Of a stretch of 64,000 nt of DNA, positions 1,146 through 2,339 are shown one piece after another (the stretch's first letter is position 1; every line of letters begins with the position of its first letter). Under the pieces are notes generated by a model. The model was not told the DNA's origin, did not search any database, and saw only the letters and a list, made by a program, of their open reading frames with translations. Both the position numbers and the translations under genes were made by a program. Origin of the DNA: Natronorubrum tibetense GA33 (GTDB lineage Archaea; Halobacteriota; Halobacteria; Halobacteriales; Natrialbaceae); contig NZ_KB913017.1 in NCBI RefSeq assembly GCF_000383975.1, forward strand, positions 2,952,265 through 3,016,264, given 5' to 3'.

Positions 1146-2339
1146 ATGGAGACGACGGACGCCTTTGCCGGCCTCGAGTGTGTCGACTGCGGGGGGAGCT
1201 ACGACCCGGCCGACGTATCCCACCGCTGTCCCGACTGCGACGGCTTTCTCGACCCGACCTACGACTACGACGCGATCGATCTCGATCGGGAGACGCTCGC
1301 CGCTCGGCCGTTCGACTCGCTGTGGCGCTACGAGGAACTACTCCCGTTTACGCGTGAGTCCGCGGTGACGACGAACGAGGGCGCGACGGCGCTGGTCGAC
1401 TGTCCCGACCTGGCCGACGAACTGGGTATCGACCGGCTCCTCATCAAGGATGAGGGCCGGAATCCAACCGGATCGACGACCGATCGCGGCCTGTCGGTCG
1501 CCCTGACGGCCGCCAGCCAGCACGGCGCGAGCGACGTCGCCCTCGCGACGACGGGCAACGGCGGACAGGCTGCCGCCGCGTACGCAGGGCGAGCCGGACT
1601 CGAGTCACACTCCTACGTCCCCTCGCGCTCGAGTTTCTCGAACAAGGCGATGATCAACGTCCACGGCGGCGACATGAACGTCGTCGGCGGCCGGTATGAC
1701 GACGCCGTCGGCGCGTTCGAGGAGGGGCTGGCCGAAAACGACGACTGGTACTCGGTGCAGTCGTTCGTCATGCCGTACCGCCACGAAGGGGCCAAAACGA
1801 CGCTGTACGAAATCGTGGAGGGACTCGAGTGGGAGGTCCCCGATATCGTGGCCTATCCGACCGGCGTCGGCGTCGGTCTCATCGGCGCGTATAAGGCCGC
1901 GACGGAGCTCCGAGAGCTCGGACTGGTCGACGACCTCCCCGGACTGTACGCCGCCCAAGCCGACGGCTGTGCGCCCATCGTCGACGCGTTCGAGAACGGC
2001 CACGACGAGCACGAGCCGGTCGAAACGCCGGATACGATTTGCGGCGAAATCGAGATCGCCGATCCGCCGGCGAGTGCGCGGGTGCTCGAGGCGCTGGCCG
2101 AGACCGACGGCGGTGCGGTTGCGACCGAGGATCGGGACATCCTCGAGGCCGCGGTGCAGGTGGCCCAGCACGAGGGCCTCGAGATGGCACCGAGTCCGGC
2201 CGCGGCCGCAAGCGGGGTCTGGGAACTCGCCGAGCGCGGCGAGTTCGACGGAAGCGAAACGGTCGTCATCGTTAACACCGCCTCGGGGAACAAAGAGGGG
2301 GACGTGCTGCGCAGTCACCTGATGAGTCAGGGCGTGTAG
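1146..2339 (+). CDS. Threonine synthase homologue (fold-type II PLP family) lacking the Schiff-base lysine
   Basis: A 397-residue member of the threonine synthase/tryptophan synthase beta family. The N-terminus has the zinc-ribbon seen in archaeal ThrC (CVDCGG then CPDCDG), followed by the two-domain PLP fold. The motif that normally reads NPTGSFKDRG reads NPTGSTTDRG at residues 106-115, so the expected PLP lysine (residue 112) is threonine. The phosphate-binding loop is PTGVGVGL instead of a G-N-G-G type. ATG at 1146 is preferred over 1059 because homology begins there. ThrC activity is therefore doubtful; it may be a regulatory or neofunctionalised paralogue. Confidence 0.75.
   Translation: METTDAFAGLECVDCGGSYDPADVSHRCPDCDGFLDPTYDYDAIDLDRETLAARPFDSLWRYEELLPFTRESAVTTNEGATALVDCPDLADELGIDRLLIKDEGRNPTGSTTDRGLSVALTAASQHGASDVALATTGNGGQAAAAYAGRAGLESHSYVPSRSSFSNKAMINVHGGDMNVVGGRYDDAVGAFEEGLAENDDWYSVQSFVMPYRHEGAKTTLYEIVEGLEWEVPDIVAYPTGVGVGLIGAYKAATELRELGLVDDLPGLYAAQADGCAPIVDAFENGHDEHEPVETPDTICGEIEIADPPASARVLEALAETDGGAVATEDRDILEAAVQVAQHEGLEMAPSPAAAASGVWELAERGEFDGSETVVIVNTASGNKEGDVLRSHLMSQGV

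Follow-up and report, generated by a model that had tools for sequence, protein, structure and literature searches.

The gene at positions 1146 to 2339 of the window (the whole stretch of 64,000 nucleotides of Natronorubrum tibetense GA33 DNA that was analysed) likely encodes a pseudoenzyme form of the threonine-synthase family (PLP fold type II); the loss of activity is inferred, as there is no biochemistry. Among the haloarchaeal orthologues of this protein, several independent losses of the PLP pocket have occurred. We favour, with a probability of roughly 0.78, the reading that a bifunctional ancestor repeatedly dropped catalysis and that a PLP-independent second role was almost never lost; both functions are inferred, and the second one has not been observed. 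That we are dealing with a class-wide archaeal pseudoenzyme showing recurrent loss of catalysis is very likely, the inactivity again being inferred. In the literature searched, no paper on this haloarchaeal ThrC-like family was found.

The threonine synthase homologue of the window

The features of the gene are:

1146..2339, + strand: putative lysine-less ThrC-family pseudoenzyme, 397 aa (translation, profile matches, alignment, AlphaFold2, PDB folds)
1179..1238, + strand: zinc ribbon CxxC/CxxC, C12/C15/C28/C31 (sequence)
1461..1490, + strand: NPTGSTTDRG, with T112 (codon acc, 1479-1481) in place of the PLP Schiff-base lysine (sequence, alignment, orthologue survey)
1545..1571, + strand: altered SxGN loop ATTGNGGQA; ASAGNAGQA in lysine orthologues (orthologue comparison)
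1641..1694, + strand: second-site element 1, NKAMINVHGG...GGR, with N171 and R183 invariant (alignments, residue scoring)
1857..1886, + strand: altered PLP phosphate loop PTGVGVGLIG; PTGGGVGLVG in lysine orthologues (orthologue comparison)
2028..2054, + strand: second-site element 2, PDTICGEIE, with P295, D296, G300, and E303 invariant (alignments, residue scoring)
2301..2336, + strand: second-site element 3, C-terminal tail DVLRSHLMSQGV, with M393 and G396 invariant (alignments, residue scoring)

The open reading frame (1146-2339, +) is translated without a break into 397 residues, which include IKDEGRNPTGSTTDRG, ATTGNGGQ, and PTGVGVGL. An alignment with solved threonine synthases places T112 at the PLP lysine, identifies N138 as the asparagine of the SxGN loop, and sets PTGVGVG opposite the phosphate loop PVGNAGN. 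The claims of the initial annotation that the frame is undamaged, that the lysine has become threonine, and that the phosphate loop is altered therefore held; its statement that the zinc ribbon is intact is correct for the window protein, and the ribbon is incomplete in 28 of the 133 distinct lysine-less proteins. A read error or a strain-specific mutation at T112 can be ruled out: the change is common to relatives including N. texcoconense, whose orthologue is 93% identical and carries threonine at the same position. Both findings that would have refuted the initial annotation, a read error and a strain-specific change accompanied by decay, are excluded. A small cysteine-rich protein (CFDCGY...CPSCDSRC) is encoded just upstream on the same strand (624-1028, +); it lies outside the set of common conserved neighbours of the ThrC-like family.

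The window protein matches PF00291 (PALP) with an E-value of 6e-60. Its AlphaFold2 model has a mean pLDDT of 93.5, and a Foldseek search of the PDB with this model gave threonine synthases as top folds (TM 0.84-0.87, normalised to the target; 32-35% identity in the structural alignments). The protein passes the cut-off of the NCBIfam model PRK08197 'threonine synthase' (NF006050; 325 bits, cut-off 303), likewise exceeded by lysine forms (367 and 382 bits), but the catalysis implied by this name is inferred to be impossible by the normal route. As a lysine-less protein passes this equivalog cut-off, annotation pipelines will label a probable pseudoenzyme an enzyme. The cut-off of TIGR00260 thrC is missed (156.4 bits; cut-off 167.1). 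Thus, among the features of a functional ThrC, the fold is present, whereas the Schiff-base lysine, the PVGNAGN loop, and the TIGR00260 cut-off are not met. Compared with ThrC (PDB 1v7c/1uim, 6nmx, 2d1f; PF00291 PALP), with which it has fold and domain in common, the window protein lacks the PLP lysine and the phosphate loop, and additionally possesses an invariant tail and the motif PDxxxGxxE. Judged by the features tested, it does not qualify as a functional threonine synthase; that it does not convert O-phosphohomoserine to threonine is inferred, as no assay was performed, and PLP binding without the lysine remains possible, since it is not strictly excluded. A relocated PLP lysine was rejected as a candidate, because each lysine conserved in the lysine-less forms is equally conserved in the lysine forms.

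The source genome contains four further ThrC-like genes with the lysine (L002-L005), one of which, L003, reaches 284 bits with TIGR00260 (cut-off 167). The suggested check for a second, complete thrC is thereby answered, with the reservation that L003 being a true ThrC is inferred from sequence alone. In H. volcanii, disrupting only thrC3 (HVO_2969) results in a mutant that requires Gly/Ser/Thr (PMC4300041). Given L003 and this phenotype, threonine synthesis need not depend on the lysine-less protein.

Repeated loss of the PLP pocket

The gene was found in 124 of 125 genomes of the Natrialbaceae, nearly always as a single copy with a conserved reading frame; among the Halobacteria, 191 of the 194 genomes with a completeness of ≥90% contain a family match. 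Lysine and lysine-less forms have their gene neighbourhood in common and are therefore orthologues at one locus. After removal of identical sequences, there were 82 lysine forms of the single-copy type, 133 lysine-less forms, 6 forms that combine a lysine with a degraded pocket, and 26 lysine forms of two-copy genomes. The lysine orthologues are nearly uniform in their motifs (NPTGTFKDRG, SAGNAGQ, PTGGGVGL). Lysine-less ones are diverse (GSTTDRG, GSTADRG, GSVADRG, GTIRDRG, GTVLDRG, GTVYDRG, and others), and position 112 is occupied in the 133 distinct sequences by 13 residues, namely L, T, A, R, Y, V, D, G, F, M, E, I, or Q.

In a gene tree built with the motif columns masked, at least 8 changes between lysine and non-lysine are required; in each of 300 bootstrap trees the number is 8-9, and if the lysine was never regained, 10-17 losses are needed. 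Forcing all lysine-less rows into one clade was rejected by the AU test (p = 0.00065, lnL difference 138). Among the separate losses are those in the main Natrialbaceae group, which includes the window gene, in a second Natrialbaceae group (L201, L202, L203, L207), in Haloglomus (beside L085), in Halococcus (beside L096), and in a Haloferacales-Natronomonas-Halomarina group. The question raised by the initial annotation, whether the exchange of lysine for threonine is conserved as a clade, is answered in the negative by tree and AU test: several losses took place, the lysine was replaced by a variety of residues, and some orthologues at this locus retain it. The losses cannot be counted exactly, as the gene tree and the rpo-operon tree conflict in places and recombination between the forms at this locus, which may have spread them, is likely in the Natrialbaceae. 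Note that in the rpo tree one haloarchaeal genome (G030) has a very long branch; it contains two rpoB' genes (G030:C1:1057210 and 1436684).

The presence or absence of the lysine alone is an imperfect marker of the pocket state, given some Natrinema and Halomarina proteins. There, a lysine (GTSKDRG or GTVKDRG) occurs on a degraded pocket with 4-6 of 13 residues (Natrinema-type L046, L056, L150, L159, L166; Halomarina L105/L333); this might reflect a regain, or a pocket in which the lysine has persisted longer than the other residues. The four zinc-ribbon cysteines are found in 82/82 single-copy lysine forms and in 105/133 lysine-less forms. They are gone in several lysine-less lineages of Halobellus, Halorubrum, and relatives (L272-L287, L289, L294, L295, L313, L314); no full-pocket lysine form lacks them.

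Purifying selection and second-site residues

The lysine-less copies are under purifying selection like the lysine copies: the median pairwise dN/dS is 0.187 for single-copy lysine forms, 0.178 for lysine-less forms, and 0.195 for lysine forms of two-copy genomes. The mean column entropy is 0.63 bits for the lysine forms and 0.71 bits for the nearer lysine-less forms. Positions that are invariant in the lysine forms and free in the lysine-less ones are mainly F111, K112, A136, A139, M219, Y237, G241, V243, G244, G301, and G308-S310; according to the alignment with solved threonine synthases, many of the positions invariant only in lysine forms are on or beside the PLP-binding loops. Absence of catalytic residues, maintenance of the fold (in the predicted structure), and purifying selection combined with wide retention meet the criteria for a pseudoenzyme, the inactivity and a non-catalytic role being inferred.

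In two-copy genomes of the Haloferacaceae, one copy has the lysine, and its partner is lysine-less wherever it was read. The lysine copies of 26 such genomes have a complete pocket (13/13 residues) and, on average, only 0.35 of eight second-site residues (N171, R183, P295, D296, G300, E303, M393, and G396), whose invariance among the other forms is 97-100%. The mean scores for second site (of 8) and pocket (of 13) are 7.98/12.96 for single-copy lysine forms, 7.93/2.32 for lysine-less forms, and 0.35/13.00 for two-copy lysine forms. In the 7 two-copy genomes for which both sequences were read, the lysine-less partner has 8/8 second-site residues and neither the lysine nor the greater part of the pocket. 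This pattern looks like a partition of two ancestral functions. The inference is limited in two respects: the eight positions were picked post hoc, from the two-copy lysine forms, and since these forms constitute one clade, the reciprocal split represents one evolutionary event (or one transfer). They cluster with other haloarchaeal lysine forms and not with their own lysine-less partners (SH-aLRT 86-99), so that an old duplicate or a transferred gene is possible.

A second, distant lysine-bearing paralogue (L204, L205, L208-L210, L369) of about 46% identity occurs in a few genomes, where it frequently lies outside contig C1; this group (L204-L210) lacks most of the second-site residues.

Proposed explanation and rivals

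In the reading we prefer, the ancestral protein would have combined a PLP reaction of the ThrC type with a PLP-independent job at a second surface, putatively formed by N171, R183, PDxxxGxxE (295-303), and the C-terminal tail, for which there are no spatial data. In lineages no longer needing the PLP reaction, the pocket would have drifted and the second job would have been kept. What this job consists in we can only guess: by analogy with other PLP-fold pseudoenzymes, the protein may bind a small ligand or a partner, the latter being either an active paralogue of the ThrC type or a different enzyme. The initial annotation had supposed that the protein cannot perform normal PLP chemistry and is kept for another role; this inference, for which no assay exists, is supported by conservation, by dN/dS and synteny, and by the reciprocal split seen in genomes with two copies. 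Among the roles it named (sensor, inhibitor, or structural partner), our data do not discriminate. A bolder version could as well be wrong as right: a near-universal haloarchaeal protein would have an indispensable job different from the annotated PLP reaction, its catalytic half having been discarded many times and split onto two genes in the Haloferacaceae, and the second site would mark an undescribed conserved regulator or assembly factor.

The closest evolutionary pattern is that of the fungal Ssd1/Dis3L2 pseudonucleases, where the catalytic site of a bifunctional ancestor was lost at least four times and the second function is conserved (PMC8097288). Two hallmarks of this type are found here as well, namely several independent losses and a second site conserved both in members with an active site and in those without (7.98/8 and 7.93/8, for residues chosen post hoc). 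Ssd1/Dis3L2 differ in that they belong to an unrelated nuclease family, are eukaryotic, and have a known second function (RNA binding). The eudicot TSB-like protein is a pseudoenzyme of a fold type II PLP family with a retained non-catalytic role (PMC12727527); it differs in being a plant-specific TrpB paralogue with the known partner TSA, inactivated by two other residues. LCB1/SPTLC1 and antizyme inhibitor are PLP-family partners without the PLP lysine or PLP binding; they have other PLP folds, are eukaryotic, and, to our knowledge, no repeated loss has occurred in them. With bifunctionality inferred, the haloarchaeal family would be a rare example from prokaryotes of a bifunctional ancestor that gave rise to pseudoenzymes repeatedly. 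Automatic annotation names such genes threonine synthase, which many members cannot be. The family also offers a natural experiment: dozens of culturable species have one gene at one locus, some with an active site and some lacking it, and in a third group the functions are apparently split; the second function is therefore directly testable by genetics.

The second job takes its most specific form in the idea of a regulatory partner: the lysine-less protein would control an active ThrC-like enzyme present in the same cell, by heterodimerisation or by other means. This is possible, in the absence of interface data. In its favour, the source genome has four more ThrC-like proteins with the lysine, among them one clear ThrC, and within fold type II TSB-like sets a precedent (PMC12727527). 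The homodimeric nature of fold type II threonine synthases also supports this alternative, and LCB1/SPTLC1 for LCB2 and TSB-like for TSA may serve as models. Against it, no neighbourhood link to any paralogue was found. Gene neighbourhood gave no clue to function in general, as the conserved neighbours vary by group and look unrelated, so that no pathway was inferred: by eye, sequences beside the gene are a metallopeptidase-like and a PcrB-like protein in the Natrialbaceae, and a metallophosphoesterase-like and an FAD-oxidoreductase-like protein outside this family.

Alternatively, the protein could be a ligand sensor that binds a phosphorylated amino acid or a similar compound in the old substrate cleft and signals via the C-terminal tail; this too is conceivable, binding data being absent. 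The substrate-side residues P210, R212, G215, and K217 and the tail are invariant across all forms. However, they may merely maintain the fold; several of them occur in ordinary ThrC as well, and no regulator was recognised beside the gene.

According to a third alternative, the lysine-less form arose once in ancient times and replaced lysine forms by recombination at the same locus. The conflict between gene and rpo trees within the Natrialbaceae and the occurrence of both forms in several genera speak for it. Against it, the single clade is rejected by the AU test, residues and loop sequences differ between clades, and Haloglomus, Halococcus, and the Haloferacales group adjoin different lysine forms in the tree. 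Class-wide, this explanation is refuted and it is unlikely overall; a local spread of the lysine-less form by transfer is possible.

It is equally doubtful that the protein is still an enzyme, with another residue or a noncovalently held cofactor supporting the chemistry. K101, K167, and K217 are invariant, as is C275 in a 24-sequence alignment; however, these candidates are equally invariant in the lysine forms and hence not new, and the SxGN and phosphate loops are altered too. Finally, the slow decay of a dispensable enzyme caught before the appearance of stop codons, to which the degraded pocket, the zinc ribbon missing in some lineages, and one lysine-less copy split over two frames by a frameshift or sequencing error (G169:C1:549312-550555) might point, is very unlikely in view of a dN/dS of 0.18 equal to that of the lysine forms, a reading frame that is open in every listed family genome, retention in 191/194 genomes, and second-site residues that are 97-100% invariant.
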